Assembly: GCA_021228405.1 (NCBI GenBank)
Contig: JAJQRF010000008.1
Coordinates: forward strand, 62,001-126,000
DNA length: 64,000 bases
From: Pyrinomonadaceae bacterium
Lineage (GTDB): Bacteria; Acidobacteriota; Blastocatellia; Pyrinomonadales; Pyrinomonadaceae
Direction of reading: 5' to 3'
Below the pieces are notes generated by a model. That model ran no database searches and was not told where the DNA came from. It saw nothing but the letters and a program-made list of their open reading frames with translations. Position numbers and translations under genes: made by a program. This document shows, piece after piece, positions 4,444-62,564 of the stretch (within the stretch, counting starts at the first letter, position 1; each line of letters opens with the position of its first letter).

Positions 4444-4635
4444 ATGGAACAGATAAACACAGATGATTTAATCTATTGGATTGATAAAGATTTCGTCCAG
4501 GAAAAAGCGCAAGAAAGAATCGGCAGAAATTTGAACGACGAAGAAATTTCAAAACTGACTAAAATGGTTGAGTTTGGTTTGTGGGAAGCCGATAACACCT
4601 CCGTCAAAACTGCAATTGACGAAGTTAGCCAATAA
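4444..4635 (+). CDS. Small hypothetical protein, 63 aa
   Basis: An acidic 63-residue protein with no recognised domain, in the same frame as the truncated methylase and separated from it by TAA ATT. Its first codons are written over a 17-bp word (4449-4465) identical to part of the WP1 repeat at 26361, so the beginning of the ORF may be recent. The body (YWIDKDFVQEKAQERIGR, then DEEIS) looks like a genuine small helical protein, and it may be an unrelated gene carried with the incoming R-M cassette. Expression and function are unknown. Confidence 0.45.
   Translation: MEQINTDDLIYWIDKDFVQEKAQERIGRNLNDEEISKLTKMVEFGLWEADNTSVKTAIDEVSQ
4449..4465. repeat. WP1 repeat word at the methylase breakpoint
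   Basis: ACAGATAAACACAGATG is identical to bases inside the left arm of the WP1 element at 26361-26390. It lies 9 bp after the premature stop of the truncated methylase. Confidence 0.6.
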
Positions 4636-23637: not shown

Positions 23638-24615
23638 ATGCCCGATTTTTTCGCCAAAAAGTTTATAATTTTAATTTTTCCGTGTCTTTTTCTGATCGTT
23701 TCGTGTCAAAAACAGACGGAAAAGGACATTGAATCATTTAAAAAGGATGCACAGGCGGTGGCGGAATTTAACCGTATCAATCAAGTCATCGGGCGCGGAC
23801 AGTATCTTTCGCAAACAGACATCGATTCGCTCAATAAAATACGCGAAAAATATCCGCAAAATCCGAATGTTCGATTGCTGATGCAGTCGGCTCTGATAAA
23901 ACGCGAAGATTGGCAAGCCGCGGTCGATTTTATTAATCAAATTCCCGAAAACGAACGCACCGAAGACGAAAAAAAGAATCTTGCCAAAATTCTCGTCAAG
24001 CTCGGTCGTTATGAAGAAACGTTGCAAACGGTTACGCCTTTGCTTGAAAAAACTCCTGAAAACATTGAACTTATTTCCATTTCGAGCAATGCACTGATGA
24101 ATCTCGGACGCTACGAAGAAGCCGGAAATCAGCTCGACAAAGTCTGGAATGAGATTCTAAATCAGAATAAAGCGGACGAAGTGACGATGCGCGGGATGAT
24201 CTGGTTTTATCAGAAAAATTACGATAAAGCTGTCGAAACGCTCAACAAAGCGGTCGGAATCAATCCTGAAAGTGTCGCCGCTTACAATTCGCTTGCAAGA
24301 GTTTATGCGGCACAGGGAAACGCGGAAAAAGCGGAGGAATTTAGCAAAAAAGTGCAGTCGGTTTTCGACAAAATGACCGCTGACTCGCAAAAGAAAGCCA
24401 AATTTGTCGCCGACGCTAAAAATCTTGAAGAAGCATTTAAAGGCAAACGTTACGAAGAAGCCGTAACTCTGGCAAAAACGATGCTTCCCGATGCCGAAGC
24501 GGAAGATAAATTTGTGCTTTATCAATTTTTAGCCAATTCGTATCAGGCTCTCGGAAAGATGAAGGAAGCACAGGACGCGCTCGCCGAAGCTGAAAAATTA
24601 AAGAATCAAAAGTAG
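23638..24615 (+). CDS. TPR lipoprotein
   Basis: 325 aa with a lipoprotein signal (lipobox LIVSC, Cys23) and then consecutive tetratricopeptide-like helices: NPNVRLLMQSALIKREDWQAA, LGRYEETLQTV, LGRYEEAGNQLDKVW, YDKAVETLNKAVGINPESVAAYNSLARVYAAQGNAEKA (each read as separate pieces). It should face the periplasm as a protein-protein scaffold. It opens a six-gene same-strand cluster; 10 bp separate it from the CRTAC1 lipoprotein gene, implying an operon. Start ATG 23638 lacks an obvious ribosome-binding site. Confidence 0.85.
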   Translation: MPDFFAKKFIILIFPCLFLIVSCQKQTEKDIESFKKDAQAVAEFNRINQVIGRGQYLSQTDIDSLNKIREKYPQNPNVRLLMQSALIKREDWQAAVDFINQIPENERTEDEKKNLAKILVKLGRYEETLQTVTPLLEKTPENIELISISSNALMNLGRYEEAGNQLDKVWNEILNQNKADEVTMRGMIWFYQKNYDKAVETLNKAVGINPESVAAYNSLARVYAAQGNAEKAEEFSKKVQSVFDKMTADSQKKAKFVADAKNLEEAFKGKRYEEAVTLAKTMLPDAEAEDKFVLYQFLANSYQALGKMKEAQDALAEAEKLKNQK

Positions 24616-24625
24616 AATCTTATTA

Positions 24626-26350
24626 ATGAAATCCGAATATTTCTTATTTTTTTTGTTGTTCGCCGTCGTAATTTCAAACGGCTGTAAATCCGGAACGAAC
24701 GGAAATCAGGCAACCGCCAAAAAAGCCGAAACGAACATTCGTTTTTCGGATTTCACAAACAAAAGCGGCGTGAATTTCAGACATATTCCGACCTATACGC
24801 CCGATAAATTTATGCCGCAGGTTTTGGGAAGCGGCGTTGCGACCGCTGATTTCAACCGCGACGGCGCGCCGGATATTTTGCTCGTAAATTCGGGCGCGAT
24901 CGATGCCAAAGAACGCAGTGAAGAAGCCAAAACGCGGCTTTATATCAATGACGGAAAAGGAATTTTTGCGGATAAAACGAATGATTGGAATCTGACTTCC
25001 GTTGGCTACGGATTCGGCGTAGCGGTCGGCGATTTCGACAACGACGGCTGGACGGACGTTTTTTTGACGAATTACGAAGGAAACAATCGACTTCTGCGAA
25101 ATGCGAACGGAAAATTTGAAGATGTCACGGAAAGATCGGGCATCAGATCAGATAATTCGTGGACGACGAGCGCAGGTTTCGGCGACTTCGACGGCGACGG
25201 CGATCTGGATTTATTTGTTGTCAGATATGTGGTTTACAACCGTGAAACGGCGCAAAAATCTTATCATAATAATTTAATGACCTATTCCGCGCCGTATCTT
25301 TATCAGGGTATTTCCGACCAGCTTTGGCGCAATGACGGCAACGGGAAATTTACCGATGTCAGCAAAGAATCAGGAATTGCTTCGGCTTCGCTGAAAGGTT
25401 TGGCTCTGGCGATCGGCGATGTCGATCTCGACGGCGACACGGATGTTTATGTTGCCAACGACACGAATCCGAATCAGCTTTGGATCAACGACGGCAAAGG
25501 AAATTTCAAGGATATGGCAAAACTCGCGGGTTGCGCCTACAGTGAAGGCGGGCGCGAAGAAGGCTCGATGGGCGCGGATTTTACCGATTTTGACAATAAT
25601 AATCTGATTGATATTGCCGTTCCGAATTTTCAGGAAGAATCGACCGCGCTTTACTCGCAGGAATCGCCGATGCTTTTCCGCGAAGTTTCGGACGCGGTCG
25701 GAATCGGGCAAGCGGCGCGCGCGCGTTTGAAATTCGGACTCGACTTTTTCGATGCCGACAATGATTCGGATGAAGATTTGATCGTCGTCAACGGACATAT
25801 CGAAGACAACATCGAACAAAATTCCGATTCGGTCACGTTTGCACAGCAAAACACGCTTTACGAAAATCTCGGAAACGGAAAATTTACCGATATTTCCGAC
25901 GTTTCGGGCGAAGCATTAAAGGACAAACAAGTTTCGCGCGGCGTTGCGGTCGCGGATTTTAACAGCGACGGACTGCTCGATTTCGTCGTTTCAAACAACG
26001 GTGGAACGGCGCAGATCGTTCTCAATGAAACCGAAAAGAAAGGAAATTGTGCCGGGCTGTGGCTCGAAGGCGAAAAGACGAACCGTAACGCGATCGGCGT
26101 TCGTGTCGTCGCCAAAGTCGGCGACAAAAAGATCGAACGCCAAATTATGGGTGCACAGAGTTATTTATCGGTCAGCGATTTTCGGATAAATTTGGGTTTG
26201 GGCGAAGCGCAAAAGATCGATGAATTAACGATTTACTGGCTCGGCGCAGAACCGCAAACGATCAAAGATTTGCAGAGCGGAAAATTTTATTACATCAAAC
26301 AAGGCAAAGAACCGCAGATTTTCGTCGCAGGCGAAAAACAGATTCCGTAA
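24626..26350 (+). CDS. CRTAC1-type lipoprotein (FG-GAP/VCBS repeats plus ASPIC/UnbV)
   Basis: 574 aa, lipobox ISNGC (Cys20). At least five calcium-binding FG-GAP/VCBS repeats, each with a D-x-D/N-x-DG-x-x-D loop (GDFDNDGWTDVFL, GDFDGDGDLDLFV, GDVDLDGDTDVYV, DFNSDGLLDFVV), build a beta-propeller. The C-terminal part carries the ASPIC/UnbV module: RNAIGVRV, then QIMGAQSYLSVSD and LGLGEAQKIDELTIYWLG. Such proteins sit on the outer surface or in the periplasm and bind ligands or partners; biochemical roles are mostly unknown. The tight link to TPR proteins and an RnfD-like membrane protein is the main clue here. Confidence 0.9.
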   Translation: MKSEYFLFFLLFAVVISNGCKSGTNGNQATAKKAETNIRFSDFTNKSGVNFRHIPTYTPDKFMPQVLGSGVATADFNRDGAPDILLVNSGAIDAKERSEEAKTRLYINDGKGIFADKTNDWNLTSVGYGFGVAVGDFDNDGWTDVFLTNYEGNNRLLRNANGKFEDVTERSGIRSDNSWTTSAGFGDFDGDGDLDLFVVRYVVYNRETAQKSYHNNLMTYSAPYLYQGISDQLWRNDGNGKFTDVSKESGIASASLKGLALAIGDVDLDGDTDVYVANDTNPNQLWINDGKGNFKDMAKLAGCAYSEGGREEGSMGADFTDFDNNNLIDIAVPNFQEESTALYSQESPMLFREVSDAVGIGQAARARLKFGLDFFDADNDSDEDLIVVNGHIEDNIEQNSDSVTFAQQNTLYENLGNGKFTDISDVSGEALKDKQVSRGVAVADFNSDGLLDFVVSNNGGTAQIVLNETEKKGNCAGLWLEGEKTNRNAIGVRVVAKVGDKKIERQIMGAQSYLSVSDFRINLGLGEAQKIDELTIYWLGAEPQTIKDLQSGKFYYIKQGKEPQIFVAGEKQIP

Positions 26351-26360
26351 GAATAATTGT

Positions 26361-26460
26361 CCACAGATAAACACAGATGGACACAGATATTTTTTTATAA
26401 CTTTCCAGTTCTTTTTAAAAAAATCTATCTTTATCTGTGTTTATCTGTGTGCATCTGTGG
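26361..26460. repeat. WP1 word-palindrome (ATCTGTG)
   Basis: Left arm CCACAGATAAACACAGATGG... (26361-26390) and right arm 26431-26460 are reverse complements apart from a few bases. Each arm is three near-tandem 10-bp words of the type ATCTGTGTNN. It lies between two co-directional genes, 10 bp before the nitrilase start. Confidence 0.8.
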
Positions 26461-26470
26461 ATAAAAACTA

Positions 26471-27481
26471 ATGGAACATATTCGATATTCAGCCGCCGCT
26501 TGCCAGACGGATTTTGCAAATCCGGTTCGGCGCAGCGAAATGAAACGCAATACCGAGCGAATCTTACAAATTATTGATTCGGCGGTTGTCGGTGCGATCC
26601 CATTTTTGCCCGTCAAATTGGTAACGTTTCCCGAATTCGCACATTCCGCGCCCGTTTTTGCCGGGCTTGCCGAACTGCGTGAGAAAATTGCCGTTGAAAT
26701 TCCGAACGAACATACCGAAAAATTAACCGCGAAGGCGAAAGAACACGAAATTTTTATTCAGAGCGGTTCGATGCTCGAAATCGACAAAAAATATCCGAAT
26801 CACGTTTTCAACACGACTTGTCTGATCGGCGGCGACGGCATTTTATACAAATACCGCAAAGTAAATCCGTGGATTCCGTATGAAGTTCATTCGTCGCCGC
26901 ACGACATCGAAGGCTACGAGGAAGAACTTTTTCCCGTCGCAAAAACCGAGATCGGCAACATCGGAACGGCGATCTGCTACGATTGGATTTTTCCAGAACC
27001 GACGCGCCAATTGGCGATAAACGGCGCGGAAATTCTCGTCCGCGTTTCGGCGTATATGGACCCGTGGAACGCGACCGACCCGATGGATTGGTGGACGACC
27101 GTGAATCGTTGCCGTGCGCTCGAAAATACGTGTTACGTCGTCGCGTCGAATCAAGCCGCGAGTTTGAAACATTATCCGCCGTATTCGTGGTCGGGCAGTT
27201 CGATGATCGTCGATTTCGACGGCAGAATTTTGGCGAAAGCGAGCGAAGGACACGGCGAAAAAATCGTCGTTGCGCCGATCGATATTTCCGCGCTCCGGCA
27301 CGAAAGAAAGACGCGCAAAGGTCATCAGTTGTTAGCGCATTTGCGAACCGAAGCATATCCGATGTATCAAAAACACATTTATCCGCCGAAAAACGAAGAT
27401 CGCGGGGAGCTTTCGTATGAATTGAATAACGAATTGATCGAGAAATCGAAAGAACAATTATCCACGGATGAACACGGATAA
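26471..27481 (+). CDS. Nitrilase-superfamily carbon-nitrogen hydrolase
   Basis: A 336-aa hydrolase with the full catalytic triad: Glu55 in FPEFAHS, Lys130 in YKYRKVN, Cys169 in AICYDW. Members cleave nitriles or amides (amidases, carbamoylases, beta-ureidopropionase types). The WNATDPMDWWTT and RCRALENTCYVVASNQA blocks suggest an amidase-like branch. Length is slightly above the 280-310 norm: the last residues after QLSTDEHG are encoded by the left arm of a WP1 repeat, so the C-terminus appears extended by repeat insertion. It sits inside the CRTAC1 cluster, but its link to those proteins is unclear. Confidence 0.87.
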   Translation: MEHIRYSAAACQTDFANPVRRSEMKRNTERILQIIDSAVVGAIPFLPVKLVTFPEFAHSAPVFAGLAELREKIAVEIPNEHTEKLTAKAKEHEIFIQSGSMLEIDKKYPNHVFNTTCLIGGDGILYKYRKVNPWIPYEVHSSPHDIEGYEEELFPVAKTEIGNIGTAICYDWIFPEPTRQLAINGAEILVRVSAYMDPWNATDPMDWWTTVNRCRALENTCYVVASNQAASLKHYPPYSWSGSSMIVDFDGRILAKASEGHGEKIVVAPIDISALRHERKTRKGHQLLAHLRTEAYPMYQKHIYPPKNEDRGELSYELNNELIEKSKEQLSTDEHG

Positions 27482-27564
27482 ACTCAGATTTTATTGATAA
27501 AACCTCTCGTTTCATAATCAAATCCCTGTTCTTATCTGAGTCCATCTGTGTTAATCTGTGGTTA
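27458..27564. repeat. WP1 word-palindrome, second copy
   Basis: Left arm TTATCCACGGATGAACACGG... (27458-27490) and right arm 27532-27564 mirror each other. The left arm supplies the nitrilase C-terminal codons and its stop; the right arm ends 17 bp before the next start codon. Confidence 0.8.
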
Positions 27565-27580
27565 ATTCTCAAACTTATAA

Positions 27581-30500
27581 ATGAATAAAATTGTCGGTTT
27601 CATTTTAGTTCTAACAATTTTTGTGCTTTCGTCCTGTAAATCGAATTTGCCCGAAAAATCTTCGGCAAACTACGGCGAAGCGGTCAAATCTTTTTATGTC
27701 GGACTTGTCGCAATGCAGGCGGCGAACGATGAAAGGGCGAAAACCGAACTCGAAAAAGTCGTCAAACTTGCCGAGGGCGAACCTGCGGCTTGGGCAAATC
27801 TCGGCGTTTTGCAGATGCGTCAGAAGGATTTTGAAAACGCGTTCAAATCGCTCGAAAAAGCCCGCAATCTCGCGCCTGAAAATGCACAAATTTATTCCAA
27901 TCTCGCCGTTTTGGAAATTCAACGCGGAAATTTCGGGAAAGTAAAGGAAAATCTGCAAAAAGCCATCGAAACGAATCCGAACGATTCAAAGGCAGTTTTC
28001 GCACTCGCCGCTGAAAACGAGCGCGACGGAAACGATGCGGAAGCACTTGCGCTTTACGAGAAGATTTTGCAGTCGAAACCTGAAAATCTGCCCGTCATTT
28101 TGGAAATCATCCGTTTGTCAGCCAAACGAAACGAAACCGAAAAACTAAAAACGAATTTCGCTAAAATAAAACCGCGTGAAGACGTTTGGGGCGATGAGAT
28201 CAAGGAACAATTCGCTTCCCTGCAAGCTTCCGTCAACAGCGGAAACGCCCGCGAAGTGGCGCAGAAGATCGCTTTTTTCCGCAATGTTTTATTGCGTCTG
28301 CCCGAATTTCGCGGCGCACTTGCAGACGTGAAATTCAGCGATACAACCATCGGCGAACCGTTTCTGAAACCGTTGAAACTTCCCGTTCCAGATTTTTCGC
28401 CCGCCGCGCCTGATGAAAGTCTGACCTTTAAAACTGAAAACGTTTCAACCGAAAAAGCAATTTTCGGTAAAGCCGTTTTTCTCGACGGTGATTCCGCGCC
28501 GATCAATGCTTTTGCGTCCGAAAAGGAAATAAAACTGGGCGAAAAATCTTTGCCGGTTTCTAACGCAAAAGATTTGCAGACGCTCGACATTGATTACAAT
28601 TTCAAGAATGATTTCGTTGCTTCAAGCGAAAAAGGTTTGCAGTTTTTCAAGGACGATCTTTCCGAAATCACTGCAAACACGAAACTTTCAAATGACATTT
28701 TGCATAAGAAAATCTCTAAAATCTTCACGTTCGACATTGAAATCGACGGCGATCTCGATTTAGTTTTAGCGGTTGAAAATTCCGCGCCGATAGTTTTGCA
28801 GAACAATGCCGACGGGACATTCAAGGAAATCAAAGTTTTCGGTGAACTCAACAATTTACGCGATTTCGTTTCCGCCGATTTTGACGAAGACGGCGACATC
28901 GACGCGGCGATTTTGAACGGAAATTCAAAACTGAACATCTTTTCAAACGAACGCGGCGGACAATTTAAGCTTAGAAACGCGCCCGTTTCAAGTGCGGCTT
29001 CGGCGATCTATTCGGCTGATTCAAACGGCGATGGAAAGCTCGATCTGAACATTTTGCAAGCTGACGGGAATTTGATTCGCGCAACTGACAAAAATGACGG
29101 TAAAGATTGGGAAACGGTTGAAATATTAAAGAGCGAAACAATTGAAAATCCGACTCTGATAATTCAGGATTTCGACAACAACGGCGCAAGCGATGTTTTG
29201 ATCTCAAACCGTGTTTGGCTTGGCGGAAAGGACGGAAAGTTTAACGCTTTGTCGACTCAATTAAACGGGAAAGTTTCGTCTGCGGCAGATTTTAATTCAG
29301 ACGGGAAACTCGATCTTTCGGGAATCGATGCGGACGGGAAAGCGGCAACTTTTCTTAATCAATCTGCAAAAAATTACGCCTGGCAGATAATCAGACCGCG
29401 TTCGGCAAAAGCGGAAGGCGATCAGCGCGTGAATTCGTTCGGTATCGGCGGCGAAATGGAAATTCGGGCGGGACTACTCGCGCAAAAACGTGTGATTTCC
29501 GCGCCGCAAGTTCATTTTGGTTTGGGCGAACAGACGGCGACCGATCTGCTTCGGATCGTTTGGGGAAACGGATTTATCCAAGCCGAATTCGATCTGCAAA
29601 AAGACCAGCAAATCCTTGTGAAGCAAAGACTAACGGGTTCGTGTCCGCATCTTTTCGCGTGGAACGGAACCGAATTTAAGCTCGTTAAGGATTCTGCACC
29701 GCTCGCGACTTCGCTCGGTTTGCGCGTTTCGGACGAGGAAATTCTGTCCGTCACGCAAACGGAAGAATGGTATAAGATTTCGGGCGAAAAGCTTGCACCG
29801 CGCGACGGATTTTACGAACTTCGCATCACGGACGAACTTTGGGAAAGTTACTATGTCGACCATTATTCACTCGTAGCGATAGATCACCCGCTCGGCACGG
29901 AAATTTTTGCAAACGAACTTTATCCTGTGCCCGTTCCACTGAAACTGCACCTGACCTCAAACCTGAAACCGTTTGCAAGCGCGACGGACGAAAGCGGAAA
30001 CGATGTTTCAAATTTGGTCGAAAATCTGGACGAAATTCATCTCGACACGTTTGCCGACGGGCGTTTTCAAGGTGTGGCGAAGGAACATTTTGTCGAACTT
30101 GTTTTGCCTGAAAATGTTTCCAATGAAAGCCAATTAAACATCGTCGCTGACGGTTGGCTGCATCCGACCGACACTTCTTTGAACGTCGCGATCAGCCAGA
30201 GCGGATTTGAAAAACCGAAAAGTTTGAGCCTCGATGTTTCGGACGAAAGCGGAAACTGGAAAACGGTCAAAGACGATTTCGGTGTTCCGGCGGGAAAACT
30301 GAAAACCATCGTCGTCGAACTGCCGAACGGCACGAAACGCGCGCGTTTGCGGACGAATATGGAGATTTTTTGGGATAGATTGGCGTGGGCTGAGAGCGTT
30401 TCGGAAAGCGAAAATGTCGTGCAGAAGATCGAACTTTCAAACGCTGATCTTGCGTTCAGAGGGTTTTCCGAAATTAATAAAAAAGACGAATCTTCGCCCG

Positions 30501-30913
30501 AAATTCCCGATTACAACCGCATTGCGACGACCATCGAGCGATGGCGAAGCATCGAAGGTTATTACACGCGCTACGGCGAAATTCTGGAACTTTTGACGAA
30601 AACCGACGACCGTTATGCGATTGTCGCTTCGGGCGACGAGATACGTCTGAAATTTCCTGCGCTTGCGCCTGTCAAACAAGGTTTTGTGCGCGATTTTGTG
30701 ATCGTCGGCAACGGCTGGATCAAAGAAGGCGATTACAACAACCTGTTTTCAAAAACGATTCTGCCGCTTCCGACGCACGCGACGAACGATTATTCGCGCA
30801 AACCGACGATTTTGGAAGATGATCCGGTTTATCAAAAAAATAAAATGGACTGGCTGAATTTTCACACGCGCTACGTTGCGCCCGATTCGTTCAGAAATGC
30901 AATGAGAAGATAA
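27581..30913 (+). CDS. Large lipoprotein with TPR, FG-GAP/VCBS and ASPIC/UnbV domains
   Basis: 1110 aa. Lipobox LSSC (Cys19) is followed by TPR units (about 30-200: ANLGVLQMRQKDFENAFKSLEKA, YSNLAVLEIQRGNFGKVKENL in parts), a propeller region with D-x-D-x-DG-x-x-D loops (FDIEIDGDLDLVL, DFDEDGDIDAAIL, SNGDGKLDLN; about 370-590), the ASPIC/UnbV module (FGIGGEMEIRAGLL and HFGLGEQTATDLLRIVWGN, about 613-665), and a large C-terminal beta-rich region (about 690-1100) opening with a CPHLFAWNG motif. It combines in one chain the two protein types encoded next to it (TPR lipoprotein and CRTAC1). Probably a periplasmic or surface assembly platform. Function unknown. Confidence 0.85.
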   Translation: MNKIVGFILVLTIFVLSSCKSNLPEKSSANYGEAVKSFYVGLVAMQAANDERAKTELEKVVKLAEGEPAAWANLGVLQMRQKDFENAFKSLEKARNLAPENAQIYSNLAVLEIQRGNFGKVKENLQKAIETNPNDSKAVFALAAENERDGNDAEALALYEKILQSKPENLPVILEIIRLSAKRNETEKLKTNFAKIKPREDVWGDEIKEQFASLQASVNSGNAREVAQKIAFFRNVLLRLPEFRGALADVKFSDTTIGEPFLKPLKLPVPDFSPAAPDESLTFKTENVSTEKAIFGKAVFLDGDSAPINAFASEKEIKLGEKSLPVSNAKDLQTLDIDYNFKNDFVASSEKGLQFFKDDLSEITANTKLSNDILHKKISKIFTFDIEIDGDLDLVLAVENSAPIVLQNNADGTFKEIKVFGELNNLRDFVSADFDEDGDIDAAILNGNSKLNIFSNERGGQFKLRNAPVSSAASAIYSADSNGDGKLDLNILQADGNLIRATDKNDGKDWETVEILKSETIENPTLIIQDFDNNGASDVLISNRVWLGGKDGKFNALSTQLNGKVSSAADFNSDGKLDLSGIDADGKAATFLNQSAKNYAWQIIRPRSAKAEGDQRVNSFGIGGEMEIRAGLLAQKRVISAPQVHFGLGEQTATDLLRIVWGNGFIQAEFDLQKDQQILVKQRLTGSCPHLFAWNGTEFKLVKDSAPLATSLGLRVSDEEILSVTQTEEWYKISGEKLAPRDGFYELRITDELWESYYVDHYSLVAIDHPLGTEIFANELYPVPVPLKLHLTSNLKPFASATDESGNDVSNLVENLDEIHLDTFADGRFQGVAKEHFVELVLPENVSNESQLNIVADGWLHPTDTSLNVAISQSGFEKPKSLSLDVSDESGNWKTVKDDFGVPAGKLKTIVVELPNGTKRARLRTNMEIFWDRLAWAESVSESENVVQKIELSNADLAFRGFSEINKKDESSPEIPDYNRIATTIERWRSIEGYYTRYGEILELLTKTDDRYAIVASGDEIRLKFPALAPVKQGFVRDFVIVGNGWIKEGDYNNLFSKTILPLPTHATNDYSRKPTILEDDPVYQKNKMDWLNFHTRYVAPDSFRNAMRR

Positions 30914-31034
30914 TAGCCGCGAAAAGGCATAAAAGGCGCAAAAAGAAGATTTTTAGGCAAACTTCTTTTTTTGGATGTGCTGAATTATTCTATTCTTTTC
31001 CTTTTTTACGTTTTTTGTGCCTTTTCGCGGCTAT
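30913..31034. repeat. WP2 word-palindrome (GCCGCGAAAAGGC)
   Basis: ATAGCCGCGAAAAGGC (from 30913) is mirrored by GCCTTTTCGCGGCTAT (ending 31034); inner words AAAAGGCGCAAAAAG and TTTTTTGTG also pair. The element abuts the stop codon upstream and ends 8 bp before the next start. Confidence 0.8.
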
Positions 31035-31042
31035 CAAATTAA

Positions 31043-32821
31043 ATGAAAAGTTTTAAGCAGTTTACGTTAATCATTCTTTTTATCGGGCTTTTGTCTATCC
31101 CGTTTTTCGTTAAAAAATATTACGTGACCGAAAAAAAGATTTCGATAGATAAGGAATCGGCGATGAAGCGTTACGGTTTTTATTTTGAAGAAGTGGCGGA
31201 GAAATCGGGTGTGAATTTCAGTCATTCCGCGCCGAAATTGGATACAAAAGTCGAAAATATTATGCCGATCATCGCTTCGATGGGTGCGGGCGTGGCGGTC
31301 GCGGATTTTGACAAGGACGGCTGGAACGATTTTTATCTGACGAACAGCAGCGAAAATTCTTTCAATTCGCTTTACCGAAACAACCAGGACGGTTCGTTTA
31401 CCGACGTGGCGAAAGAGGCGGGCGTTGCCGATCTGAATAATGTCGAAACCGGCGTTTCGATGGGCGCGGTCTGGGGCGATTTCGACAATGACGGGTTTGA
31501 AGATTTGCTCGTTTACAAATGGGGCAAAACCGAGCTTTTCAAAAATAACTCAGGCAAAAATTTTACAAAGATCGAAAATACGAATTTCCCGGAATGGGCA
31601 AATATCAATTCGGCGATCTGGTTCGATTACGACCGCGACGGGCTCTTGGACGTTGTTCTCGGCGGATATTTTCGGGAAGATTTGAATCTGTGGAATTTGA
31701 AGGATTCGCGGATTATGCCCGAGAGTTTTGAATATGCGAAAAACGGCGGGCGCAAATACGTTTTTAAAAATCTGGGTAGCGGAAAATTTGAAGAAGTTTC
31801 CGAAAAACTCGGCATCAAATCGAATCGCTGGTCGCTTGCGCTCGGCTCGACCGATCTGAACGACGACGGCTTTCCCGATCTTTTTATCGCCAACGATTAC
31901 GGCGTTTCCGAATTGTTTTTTAATGACCGGGGCACAAGATTTATCGATGTCGGCGAAAACAGTGGTGTCGGGTTTGCCCCAAAAAGCGGGATGAACGCGA
32001 GTTTCGGCGACGTTCTGAATCAAGGCAAACAGGCGATCTACGTTTCCAATATTTCCGAAGAAAGTGTTTTGTTGCAGGGCAACAATCTCTGGATGCCGAA
32101 GCCGAACACGAACGGAATGAATTTGAAATTTGAAAATCAGGCGAATAATTTCGGGGTTGAGTTTGCGGGTTGGAGTTGGGGAACACAATTCGGCGATCTG
32201 AACAACGACGGAAATCTCGATCTTTTCGTGACGAACGGCTACATTTCCGCCGAAAAAGCGACGAGTTACTGGTATGACTATTCAAAAATAACGGTCGGAA
32301 ACAACGCTATCATCGGCGACGCGGCAAACTGGGGCAAGATCGAGAAAAAAAGTCTGGCGGGTTATCAGCAGAAAAAAGTCTGGCTCAACGACGGCGCGGG
32401 AAAATTTAACGATGTCGCGCTTTCGGTCGGCGTTTCGGAAACCTTCGACGGTCGCGCCGTGGCGTTTGCCGACCTGTGGAATCGCGGGGTTCTGGATGTC
32501 ATCGTCGCGCATCAGAACGCGCCCGTCCTGATCTATAAAAACACCGTTTCGCCTGAAAATAATTGGATTTCATTTGAACTTGAAGGCGAAAAATCGAATA
32601 AAAGCGCGATCGGTTCGAGTATTAAAGTTTTCTGGAACGGTCAGGTTCAAAAACAGACGCTCGACGGCGGAATCGGTTTTTGTTCGCAAAATCAAAGACG
32701 GCTTCATTTCGGTCTGGGAAAAAATGCCGCGCCCGAAAGAGTTGAAATTCGTTGGAGTTCGGGTAAAATACAAATTATAGATGCTCCCGCAGTAAATAAA
32801 GTCCACAAAATAAAGGAATAA
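31043..32821 (+). CDS. CRTAC1-type exported protein
   Basis: 592 aa with an N-terminal hydrophobic anchor or signal (about 6-25) without a lipobox Cys, so it is probably membrane-tethered or cleaved. FG-GAP/VCBS repeats with acidic loops (VADFDKDGWNDFYL, GDFDNDGFEDLLVY, FDYDRDGLLDVVL, GDLNNDGNLDLFV) are followed by the ASPIC/UnbV module (NKSAIGSSIKVFW, QTLDGGIGFCSQNQRRLHFGLG in parts). It is a paralogue of the 24626 product. Only 6 bp separate its stop from the RnfD-like gene, so the two are surely co-transcribed and probably work together across the membrane. Confidence 0.9.
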   Translation: MKSFKQFTLIILFIGLLSIPFFVKKYYVTEKKISIDKESAMKRYGFYFEEVAEKSGVNFSHSAPKLDTKVENIMPIIASMGAGVAVADFDKDGWNDFYLTNSSENSFNSLYRNNQDGSFTDVAKEAGVADLNNVETGVSMGAVWGDFDNDGFEDLLVYKWGKTELFKNNSGKNFTKIENTNFPEWANINSAIWFDYDRDGLLDVVLGGYFREDLNLWNLKDSRIMPESFEYAKNGGRKYVFKNLGSGKFEEVSEKLGIKSNRWSLALGSTDLNDDGFPDLFIANDYGVSELFFNDRGTRFIDVGENSGVGFAPKSGMNASFGDVLNQGKQAIYVSNISEESVLLQGNNLWMPKPNTNGMNLKFENQANNFGVEFAGWSWGTQFGDLNNDGNLDLFVTNGYISAEKATSYWYDYSKITVGNNAIIGDAANWGKIEKKSLAGYQQKKVWLNDGAGKFNDVALSVGVSETFDGRAVAFADLWNRGVLDVIVAHQNAPVLIYKNTVSPENNWISFELEGEKSNKSAIGSSIKVFWNGQVQKQTLDGGIGFCSQNQRRLHFGLGKNAAPERVEIRWSSGKIQIIDAPAVNKVHKIKE

Positions 32822-32827
32822 CAATCT

Positions 32828-33694
32828 TTGGAATCTATGCGCGCAAATGTAATTGAATTGTCGCCGATACAGCCGAAATTTCAAGTCGAAAAAATATTCG
32901 GGATCGATTCGCGCTATATAATGCCGATTTTGATTACCGTCATCCTGCTGGTCGGGCAGATTTCGTTCGGAATTCTGGAAAGTTATCCGCAGACGATCAC
33001 GGCAATTCTGATTTCGGTAATTTTTGAAATCGTTCTTTCCTATTACACCCGCGGAACTTTTCCGCATCTTGCCAGCGCGTATATTTCGGGAATCAGCGTC
33101 GGAATTTTAACCCGTTCGCCCGAGTTTTGGACTTTTGCCCTCTGCGCGGCGATTGCGACAACCTCGAAATACGTGGTTCGCGTGAAAGGTCGGCACATCT
33201 GGAATCCGTCGAATTTTGCGATCTCGATAATGCTTCTGATCGCGCCTTTCGCATATTCGACCTTGAGCATTCAATGGGGAAATAATCTTTACGCGATGCT
33301 CGTCATCTGGACGCTCGGTTCGATCATTATCTACCGCCTCGGACGCTTTCACATCACATTTACATACGTTTTAGCATTTGTTTTTTTCGCCTTTATCCGC
33401 AGTTTTATAAACGATCAGCCTTTTCTTGCCGAAATCGCGCCGCTCACCGGACCGATGTATCAACTCTTTATATTTTTTATGATTACCGATCCGGCAACGA
33501 CGGTTCGTTCATCGAAAAAAGTGCAAATGTTCATCGCTTTTATGATCGCATTTGCGGAAATGCTCCTGCGTCTGAGCGAAAATATTCACGCACCATATTT
33601 CGCGCTTTTTATCGTCGGACCGATTACAAATCTGATCGACATCTGGTGGAATTCCCGAAAAGCAAAAGCGAAGCCGGCAACCGCAACAAACTAA
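32828..33694 (+). CDS. RnfD/NqrB-like integral membrane protein (stand-alone)
   Basis: 288 aa with about eight or nine transmembrane helices. Family blocks: GRHIWNPSNFAISIML (about 119-134), which matches the NPxxF loop of RnfD/NqrB, and FFMITDPATTVRSSKK (about 216-231), which matches the TDP-T/S loop. The SGAT-type motif where FMN is covalently attached in RnfD/NqrB is not seen, so a flavin-linked electron-transfer role is doubtful. No other Rnf subunit is nearby. TTG 32828 is preferred: AAGGA lies 9 bp upstream, whereas ATG 32837 would be 18 bp away. It closes the CRTAC1 cluster and is followed by a bidirectional terminator. Confidence 0.8.
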   Translation: MESMRANVIELSPIQPKFQVEKIFGIDSRYIMPILITVILLVGQISFGILESYPQTITAILISVIFEIVLSYYTRGTFPHLASAYISGISVGILTRSPEFWTFALCAAIATTSKYVVRVKGRHIWNPSNFAISIMLLIAPFAYSTLSIQWGNNLYAMLVIWTLGSIIIYRLGRFHITFTYVLAFVFFAFIRSFINDQPFLAEIAPLTGPMYQLFIFFMITDPATTVRSSKKVQMFIAFMIAFAEMLLRLSENIHAPYFALFIVGPITNLIDIWWNSRKAKAKPATATN

Positions 33695-49480: not shown

Positions 49481-49546
49481 TAGCCGCAAAAAGCCGCAAA
49501 AAAACAAAAAGAAAATATTTGAGTTTTTTGCGCCTTTTTGCGGCTA
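49481..49546. repeat. WP2 word-palindrome, second copy
   Basis: TAGCCGCAAAAAGCCGCAAA (from 49481) is mirrored by TTGCGCCTTTTTGCGGCTA (ending 49546). It separates cutA and the M48 protease gene. Confidence 0.8.
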
Positions 49547-61220: not shown

Positions 61221-62564
61221 ATGACGAAAAATCTAAATTATTGGAAACGTTTGACGGCGACGCTTTGGTTTTTGCCCGCTTTGCTGGCTTTTTGCGGTGT
61301 GCTCTTGGGTTTGGTGTTGGTGGCGGTTGACCGCAATATCGGCTTGAAATTCGGGAATCTGCCGTTTTTTTTCGGGGTCGAACCTTCCGGCGCAAGCAAT
61401 GTGCTGGCGATCATCGCGGGTTCGACGATCACGGTCGCGGGGACTGTTTATTCGATCACTATCGTTGCGCTGACGCTGGCTTCGACCCAATTTTCGCCGC
61501 GCATTTTGCGCAATTTTATGCGCGACACGGGCAATCAGTTCGTTTTGGGCGTGCTCGTCGGCATTTTCGCTTACTGCATCGTCGTTTTGCGAACGATCAG
61601 GTCGGGCGGTGATGAAACGACCGATTTCGTCCCGTCGATCGCGGTCGTTTTCGGCGTTTTGCTCGGTCTTTCCGGGGTCGGCGCGTTAATTTATTTCATT
61701 CATCACGTCGCCACTTCGATACAGGCAACCAGCATTATTTCAACGATCGCCGCCGAAACCGTGTCGGAGATCGAAGAAAATTATGAGTTTGAATACGACC
61801 GCATTCAGTTCGACAAAGAGATTCTGAGCGCGATGCCGCTCAAAAAATGGATAAAGATTCCATCCGACGAAACGGGTTATATTCAGAATGCCGACACGGA
61901 CGCGCTTTTCGAGATCGCGAAACGGCTCGATCTGGTCGTGCAGATGCGCCGCCGCGTCGGTGAATTTACGATCAAAGGCTTGCCGCTTTTGCAGATCGCG
62001 TCGAAGCGGGAAAACTTTGCGCCCGACGAAAATCTCATCAGGGAATTTAATGCGGCTTACGACATCGGCAATTTTCGGACGGTCGAAGGCGATGTCGCTT
62101 TCGGTTTGCGGCAGATCGTCGATATTGCGTTGAAAGCTCTTTCGCCCGCGATCAACGACACGACGACTTCGCTTTCCTGCATCGATTATCTGACCGCGAT
62201 TCTGGTTTGCCTCGCCAAACGCCCGTCCTGCCCGCCGCTCTTTTTCTGCGAAGGCGAATTGCGTCTGGTCATCAATCAACAGCGTTTCGAGGATTATTTC
62301 GATCTCGCCTACAATCAAATCCGCCAAAACGGGAGCGGAAACGTTGCCGTCATTCTGCGCCTTCTAAATTCGATGGAAGTTTTGGGCAAGGCAAATCAAT
62401 CATTTAACATCCCCGAAGAACGCGCCGAACGCCACGAACTTCTCGAAACGCAAACGCGTCTTTTGATCGGTCTGGCGGAAAGAACCATCGGTGCAGATGC
62501 CGATCTGAAAACAATTCAGCGACACTACAACCACGTCAAAGAAACACTCGAAGGCTTGAGATAA
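61221..62564 (+). CDS. DUF2254 membrane protein
   Basis: 447 aa. Four transmembrane helices in the N-terminal half (ATLWFLPALLAFCGVLLGLVLVA, VLAIIAGSTITVAGTVYSITIVALTLAS, FVLGVLVGIFAYCIVVL, IAVVFGVLLGLSGVGALIYFIHH, in pieces) and a soluble C-terminal half with ALSPAINDTTTSLSCIDYL. The ASTQFSPRILRNFMRD loop is the family signature. Function unknown; widespread and often near redox or stress genes. Starts 7 bp after the PIN gene but its G+C is host-like, so it probably predates that insertion. It is followed by a WP4 repeat. Confidence 0.85.
   Translation: MTKNLNYWKRLTATLWFLPALLAFCGVLLGLVLVAVDRNIGLKFGNLPFFFGVEPSGASNVLAIIAGSTITVAGTVYSITIVALTLASTQFSPRILRNFMRDTGNQFVLGVLVGIFAYCIVVLRTIRSGGDETTDFVPSIAVVFGVLLGLSGVGALIYFIHHVATSIQATSIISTIAAETVSEIEENYEFEYDRIQFDKEILSAMPLKKWIKIPSDETGYIQNADTDALFEIAKRLDLVVQMRRRVGEFTIKGLPLLQIASKRENFAPDENLIREFNAAYDIGNFRTVEGDVAFGLRQIVDIALKALSPAINDTTTSLSCIDYLTAILVCLAKRPSCPPLFFCEGELRLVINQQRFEDYFDLAYNQIRQNGSGNVAVILRLLNSMEVLGKANQSFNIPEERAERHELLETQTRLLIGLAERTIGADADLKTIQRHYNHVKETLEGLR

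Follow-up and report, generated by a model that had tools for sequence, protein, structure and literature searches.

A conserved gene module joining a CRTAC1-type propeller to a stand-alone RnfD-like membrane protein: a candidate envelope electron conduit with kinship to the enediyne UnbV–UnbU pair

Two kinds of described system bear on the locus considered here. In the first, the membrane subunits RnfD and NqrB hold riboflavin: in Acetobacterium woodii RnfD the flavin is held by N123 and D249, and both growth and activity are lost in the mutants N123A and D249A (PMC11889175); in Vibrio cholerae NqrB the ligands include N200, N203, T162 and D346 (PMC10643135). There is precedent for an RnfD-type electron-transfer subunit that lacks the flavinylated threonine and has a non-covalent flavin site (PMC11334425), and one-way electron transfer has been proposed for Nqr/Rnf-like two-subunit systems (PMC8238504, PMC11334425). 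The second is the cassette E3/E4/E5/E/E10, which is common to all enediynes (PMC5181780). In the literature searched we found no function for E4/E5, no paper joining CRTAC1 and RnfD, none with DUF2330, and none pairing any two of UnbV, UnbU and enediyne. Here we describe six open reading frames (ORFs), P1 to P6, in a 64,000-nucleotide stretch (hereafter the window; positions 62,001 to 126,000 of contig JAJQRF010000008.1) of the 5.7-Mb genome of a Pyrinomonadaceae bacterium. Three of them, the lipoprotein P4, the propeller P5 and the membrane protein P6, appear to form a conserved envelope module around an UnbV–UnbU-type pair, in which P6 could, with about even chances as judged from sequence, be a transmembrane electron conduit.

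The case for a module begins with which genes travel together. In a sample of 396 genomes of the source phylum, 19 carried a close homologue of P6 (identity at least 49%), and in all 19 a P5 homologue lay immediately upstream of it. P4 stood upstream of P5 wherever the contig reached, except at two loci with short flanks (L037 and L051), and 22 genomes, all 19 P6-bearing ones among them, matched a profile of its C-terminal region at E < 1e-185. The nominal hypergeometric p for the co-occurrence of P4 and P6 was 1e-29, a value that is indicative only, the genomes being related and their kinship uncorrected.

We then considered the best 80 loci (49 to 71% identical to P6) from a scan of ~85,000 species' genomes, a set that favours close homologues. 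By record titles, the listed loci belong to Acidobacteriota (39), Balneolota (11), Armatimonadota (9), Bacteroidota (8), Planctomycetota (4) and Gemmatimonadota (2); among the matches listed were also Latescibacterota, Rhodothermia and a few misnamed or unplaced metagenome-assembled genomes (MAGs). The closest named relatives came from MAGs labelled Aridibacter (71%) and Pyrinomonadaceae (65%). Of the listed loci, 77 had 600 bases or more of DNA upstream of P6, and in each of these P5 directly preceded it. The pair spans at least six phyla, so the conservation of the CRTAC1–RnfD neighbourhood that an earlier note on this DNA had proposed as a check was indeed found. In 52 of 76 listed loci the two genes overlapped by 4 bp in an ATGA-type arrangement; adjacency counts were based on stop positions and homology, and some ORF starts in GC-rich DNA were called too far upstream. 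A P4 orthologue lay directly upstream of P5 in most of the 65 listed loci with enough DNA and a few kilobases downstream in two, and among the matches listed it was missing from Bacteroidota proper and several Armatimonadota. Homologues of P1, by contrast, were confined to the module loci of the nearest relatives (L035, L036 and L056). P2 preceded P4 in close relatives, and elsewhere a more remote CRTAC1 gene often followed P6. Given the adjacency of P5 and the upstream position of P4 across loci, the conserved system is therefore P4–P5–P6, with P5–P6 as its inner core, and P1 and P2 are lineage-specific add-ons. The earlier note's picture of the whole cluster as one system thus stood as to an envelope module of lipoprotein, anchored propeller and membrane protein, and had to be narrowed as to its members. 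As a sign of interaction between the partners, the adjacency and overlap of the genes carry more weight than the fused and separate versions to which the note pointed.

Adjacency of this kind could also be inherited local synteny with no functional meaning, and the neighbouring families c0, c5 and c2 are in part shared by common descent within Acidobacteriales. We regard this as very improbable for the module itself, since the pair and the triad recur in at least six phyla with differing flanks, the genes overlap, and co-occurrence was complete in the 19 genomes. Both the adjacency of P5 and P6 and the co-occurrence of P4 and P6 exceed chance; chance synteny was rejected for P5–P6 and P4, and may account for some flanking genes.

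P6 is a protein of 285 residues with no extra domain. It had no Pfam match, the RnfD/NqrB model NQR2_RnfD_RnfE included, whereas that model was passed by the UnbU protein encoded elsewhere in the same genome (28.7 bits) and by DUF2330-linked relatives. The AlphaFold2 model of P6 (predicted local distance difference test score, pLDDT, 84) matched RnfD/NqrB structures at Z scores of 20 to 22, with 21.8 to 8rbq_D (VIA). As the earlier note had said, the covalent-flavinylation motif is lacking: no [ST]GAT-type motif was present in any of 46 sequences (P6 and 45 homologues), and the loop that carries the flavinylated threonine is missing from P6. The note was also right about the absence of an Rnf partner, in that P6 is not encoded with other Rnf/Nqr subunits and the genome gave no match to Rnf-Nqr (PF02508), nor any to ApbE (PF02424), in searches that were positive in 4 and 7 control genomes. 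The riboflavin site is another matter. In profile and HMMER alignments the A. woodii RnfD ligands N123 and D249 align with P6 N123 and D218, and N123, D218 and K111 were invariant in 46 P6 proteins, 4 UnbU proteins, 9 DUF2330-linked proteins and 1 redoxin-linked protein, as well as in RsxD. The note had taken the missing flavinylation as a hint that P6 does not carry electrons but serves as a transporter or an anchor; that argument is weakened, both mutation-tested ligands being invariant and an electron-transfer subunit of this kind having precedent (PMC11334425).

The next-best folds for the P6 model were the Rh/Amt/UT channels, at Z scores of 11 to 13. P6 might accordingly be a transporter or channel through which a small molecule or natural product passes the inner membrane, P5 and P4 serving as periplasmic gate and receptor; the loss of the flavin mononucleotide (FMN) loop would suit such a role, and the NMT1-type ABC importer and the biosynthetic clusters associated with the genes, described below, fit metabolite traffic. 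We consider this unlikely. The match to RnfD/NqrB is far stronger, the riboflavin ligands are kept, A. woodii RnfD was judged non-conducting for Na+ (PMC11889175), and the polyferredoxin and redoxin neighbours of relatives would be left unexplained.

P5 is very strongly conserved: 137 positions reach 95% conservation or more in 66 sequences. Because it has no conserved cysteine or haem motif in those sequences despite this conservation, P5 more likely, on sequence grounds, serves for binding or docking than for carrying electrons. P4 comprises TPR repeats (residues ~36 to 200), an FG-GAP propeller, a weak ASPIC match (residues 640 to 678) and a conserved C-terminal region (residues 681 to 1110) with 48 invariant columns in 44 sequences. 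This region had no convincing sequence relative in the PDB, and its AlphaFold2 model (pLDDT 87.6) is β-rich, with a CBM32/35-like jelly-roll at region residues ~113 to 261. No function was read from that fold (Z about 9), since many lectin modules have it too. The strong conservation of P5 could also mean that P6 binds no cofactor and serves the propeller lipoproteins as a membrane anchor or assembly platform, and the partners of P6 homologues do vary (CRTAC1, DUF2330, redoxin), as for a general docking base. This we hold to be rather improbable, since P5, P1, P2 and P4 bear anchors of their own and the invariant polar residues of the membrane domain (K111, H120, N123 and D218) point to a ligand.

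A tblastn search of plasmids with P6 matched an "enediyne biosynthesis protein UnbU" in Streptomyces, and the source genome itself has a second CRTAC1–RnfD pair, on contig C18, that is ~50% identical to Streptomyces UnbU proteins. The C18 pair lies in an enediyne-type cassette of a polyketide synthase (PKS), DUF1702 (1e-105), UnbV and UnbU; the PKS is of iterative type, with KS, AT, KR and DH domains and a weak phosphopantetheinyl-transferase match, and the genome may thus be that of a cryptic enediyne producer. The order in the C-1027 cluster of Streptomyces globisporus, DUF1702, CRTAC1, RnfD-like and PKS, matches E3/E4/E5/E, and a Serratia plasmid has DUF1702–UnbV–UnbU with free-standing ACP and KS genes. 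P5 and P6 are ~26 to 31% identical to UnbV and UnbU, with motifs in common, and in the tree the P6 proteins (support 100/98), the UnbU proteins (100/100) and the DUF2330-linked proteins (99/99) formed three separate clades; the branches joining these stand-alone groups are long, and their branching order was not used. As P6 and UnbU fall in separate supported clades, sequence comparison places P5–P6 as a divergent relative, not a member, of the enediyne UnbV–UnbU pair.

Neighbouring genes bring the two families closer. The nearest relatives of the NMT1-type ABC transporter beside the C18 cassette (substrate-binding protein 71 to 77% identical) adjoin P4–P5–P6 in other genomes, and within the phylum the transporter tracks P6 (6 of 6 at an identity of at least 69%, 11 of 19 at 1e-40) and not DUF1702, so its assignment to the enediyne cassette is unsupported. 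The family c12 is a histidine-rich membrane protein of small size in which the motifs HWxEH, HHxEH and ELH are invariant; it has no Pfam match and looks like a metal-binding membrane protein. It occurs ~5 to 10 kb from UnbU in those Streptomyces records that can be compared by coordinates, and lies within the P4–P5–P6 gene run in Acidobacteriota and Planctomycetota; between the two settings its identity is about 50 to 59%, with 53 to 55% in the alignment. Two of 13 genomes checked had c12, beside P6 in one and beside enediyne-type DUF1702/UnbU in the other. A second gene beside c12 in Streptomyces was considered as a YtkA homologue and dropped, having no Pfam match and a poor alignment.

A trio encoding a halogenase-like flavin adenine dinucleotide (FAD) protein, a radical SAM protein and an Asn-synthase-like protein recurs beside the module in Acidobacteriota and Bacteroidota. 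It is possibly an undescribed biosynthetic set, and its recurrence implies that the substrate of the module may be a metabolite. Together with the company that UnbV–UnbU keeps (the PKS of C-1027 and of C18, and the ACP/KS/DUF1702 cluster of Serratia), the trio would fit a module that belongs to a natural-product pathway, in secondary-metabolite export or maturation, rather than to housekeeping redox. Such a role, which is compatible with an electron conduit, is possible if on the doubtful side: most module loci, the present one included, have no PKS or other synthase nearby, and the breadth across phyla and the strong conservation resemble a primary function.

Other neighbours are of redox type. 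In 12 loci from Acidobacteriota, Planctomycetota and Rhodothermia, a NapH/MauN-like polyferredoxin (family c4) and YtkA-like proteins are encoded upstream of P4 by overlapping or touching genes. On the Metabacillus plasmid pB218 (L053, 5405-6792) an AhpC/TSA-type redoxin gene overlaps an RnfD-like gene by 4 bp. The source phylum has a second, DUF2330-linked group of stand-alone RnfD-like proteins (L023, L025, L027, L031 and L032), and in several genomes the RnfD-like and DUF2330 regions share one open frame, as confirmed by Pfam for L027.

We favour the electron conduit over a transporter or an anchor because the riboflavin ligands are kept and because relatives have these polyferredoxin and redoxin neighbours. 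Several observations weigh against it. Neither P5 nor P4 has a recognisable redox centre, this genome has no c4 homologue, the operon has no electron-donor gene, and the redoxin link is a single locus. The pocket also differs, NqrB Asn200 being replaced by an invariant histidine (H120) in all stand-alone forms sampled, and the fold of P6 also serves channels (Amt, UT).

If P6 is such a conduit, it would have one flavin, with P5 as a Ca-binding CRTAC1 propeller docked on its periplasmic face, where it would substitute for the missing FMN domain and the RnfG-type partner. The lipoprotein P4 would bring substrate to the redox site through its TPR, propeller and carbohydrate-binding-like domains. 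The enediyne E4–E5 pair would then be a specialised cousin performing a redox step on a polyene or enediyne intermediate, and P4–P5–P6 and the enediyne pair probably carry out a common redox step in the cell envelope. More tentatively, and with the balance of probability on the other side, the two may represent an extracytoplasmic redox class that spans phyla, whose RnfD has riboflavin alone and is partnered by a CRTAC1 propeller in place of an FMN domain, P4–P5–P6 being the widespread form and E4–E5 a derived one that acts on the enediyne core.

E4/E5 are present in every enediyne cassette (PMC5181780), and P4–P5–P6 may help to explain them. The module is a far more widespread relative, found in culturable hosts that make no cytotoxic product (Stieleria, Roseiconus, Granulicella and Fodinibius), so that it becomes testable whether the RnfD-like partner is a flavoprotein and whether CRTAC1 binds to it. 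If the proposal is true, it would place bacterial CRTAC1/ASPIC proteins in a biochemical context and would show RnfD-type electron transfer at work outside Rnf/Nqr and without flavinylation.

The features of the locus are collected in Table 1, in which domain calls are by Pfam and P6 residues are numbered from the ATG at 32837. The six ORFs lie where the earlier note had placed them, and their TPR, FG-GAP and ASPIC domains were borne out, as was export: P1, P2 and P4 have lipobox-type signals, P5 has a single N-terminal transmembrane segment, and P6 is polytopic. The 6-bp spacing given for the CRTAC1 and RnfD-like genes holds for the TTG start of P6; from the likelier ATG it is 15 bp. The combination of FG-GAP and C-terminal ASPIC that marks CRTAC1/UnbV_ASPIC proteins is present in P2 and P5 and weakly in P4. 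Absent from the note were the very conserved ~430-residue C-terminal region of P4, the kinship with UnbV–UnbU and the riboflavin-site residues of P6. Further CRTAC1 genes occur on contigs C4, C6 and C7 of this genome with no RnfD-like match, some of them as adjacent pairs on C7 and C4, and C4 also carries a second P4-like gene.

Table 1. Features of the locus and of related loci; positions refer to the window unless a contig or locus is named
Feature	Position	Strand	Remarks
P1, accessory TPR lipoprotein	23638-24615	+	TPR; lipobox-type signal
P2, accessory CRTAC1 lipoprotein	24626-26350	+	FG-GAP and UnbV_ASPIC (6e-12); atypical lipobox SNGC
Hairpin repeat left of nitrilase	26357-26464		ATCTGTGTNNATCTGTG half-sites, dispersed
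P3, nitrilase family, outside the module	26471-27481	+	CN_hydrolase
Hairpin repeat right of nitrilase	27458-27567		ATCTGTGTNNATCTGTG, dispersed; overlaps nitrilase 3' end
P4, core member, 1110-residue lipoprotein	27581-30913	+	TPR, FG-GAP and weak ASPIC (1.4e-4)
P4 C-terminal region, 430 residues	29621-30910	+	No Pfam family
P5, core member, CRTAC1/UnbV-like propeller	31043-32821	+	FG-GAP and ASPIC (1e-17)
P6, core member, RnfD/NqrB-fold membrane protein	32837-33694	+	ATG start; TTG at 32828 possible
P6 motif H120-x-x-N123-P124-x-N126	33194-33214	+	N123 corresponds to riboflavin ligand N123 (A. woodii RnfD)/N203 (V. cholerae NqrB)
P6 motif T217-D218-P219	33485-33493	+	D218 corresponds to riboflavin ligand D249 (A. 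woodii RnfD)/D346 (NqrB)
Enediyne-type cassette of the same genome (PKSE-like, UnbU, UnbV, DUF1702)	C18 = L033, 3955-16877	-	Adjoins NMT1-type ABC transporter
c12	L064, L074, L075, L077, L085; Streptomyces L052 3613-4176, L145 8968-9525		
Halogenase-like/radical SAM/Asn-synthase-like trio	L063, L080, L088, L095, L110-L112, L129, L130		

The nitrilase P3, which the earlier note had counted in the cluster, does not belong to it. A homologue was absent from all ~100 module loci examined, dispersed repeats stand on either side of the gene, and the gap between P2 and P4, 1,230 bp here vs 15 to 37 bp in the nearest relatives (L034 to L036), shows that the nitrilase is a local insertion; P3 was thus rejected as a module partner. 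The ATCTGTGTNNATCTGTG repeat had 10 matches in the window against 0.06 expected, with a further copy near 4448 besides the flanking hairpins, and ~103 half-sites genome-wide, where the reversed control gave 0. A second hairpin family, GCCTTTTCGCGGCTA, occurs between P4 and P5 (30913-31034) and at 49481-49546.

Set beside RnfD/NqrB of Rnf and Na+-NQR, P6 has the same fold (Z 21.8), the riboflavin ligands Asn and Asp and the conserved Lys111, but it lacks the covalent-FMN threonine and its loop, has histidine in place of Asn200, and has no RnfA/B/C/E/G or NqrA/C-F type partner in the genome (PF02508 tested). The Nqr/Rnf-like two-subunit systems (PMC8238504, PMC11334425) likewise have a membrane domain without the flavinylated threonine and an extracytosolic partner; theirs, however, include a NAD-binding domain on the cytosolic side and a partner of FMN-bind type that ApbE flavinylates, whereas P6 is paired with CRTAC1 and no ApbE match was obtained in the genome. 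With NapH/MauN-type polyferredoxin systems the likeness lies in the c4 proteins encoded upstream of P4 in the 12 loci, although c4 is absent from this genome. The DUF2330-linked RnfD-like proteins share the stand-alone domain (PF03116), the H-x-x-NP and (T/S)DP motifs and an exported partner, but that partner, in some cases encoded in one open frame with them, is DUF2330, and they form a clade of their own (99/99). With UnbV–UnbU, finally, no PKSE or DUF1702 stands beside P4–P5–P6 and the enediyne cassettes have no P4 lipoprotein, but both have an exported CRTAC1/ASPIC protein adjoining a stand-alone RnfD-like membrane protein, and they have as common neighbours c12 and, in this genome, the NMT1 ABC transporter.

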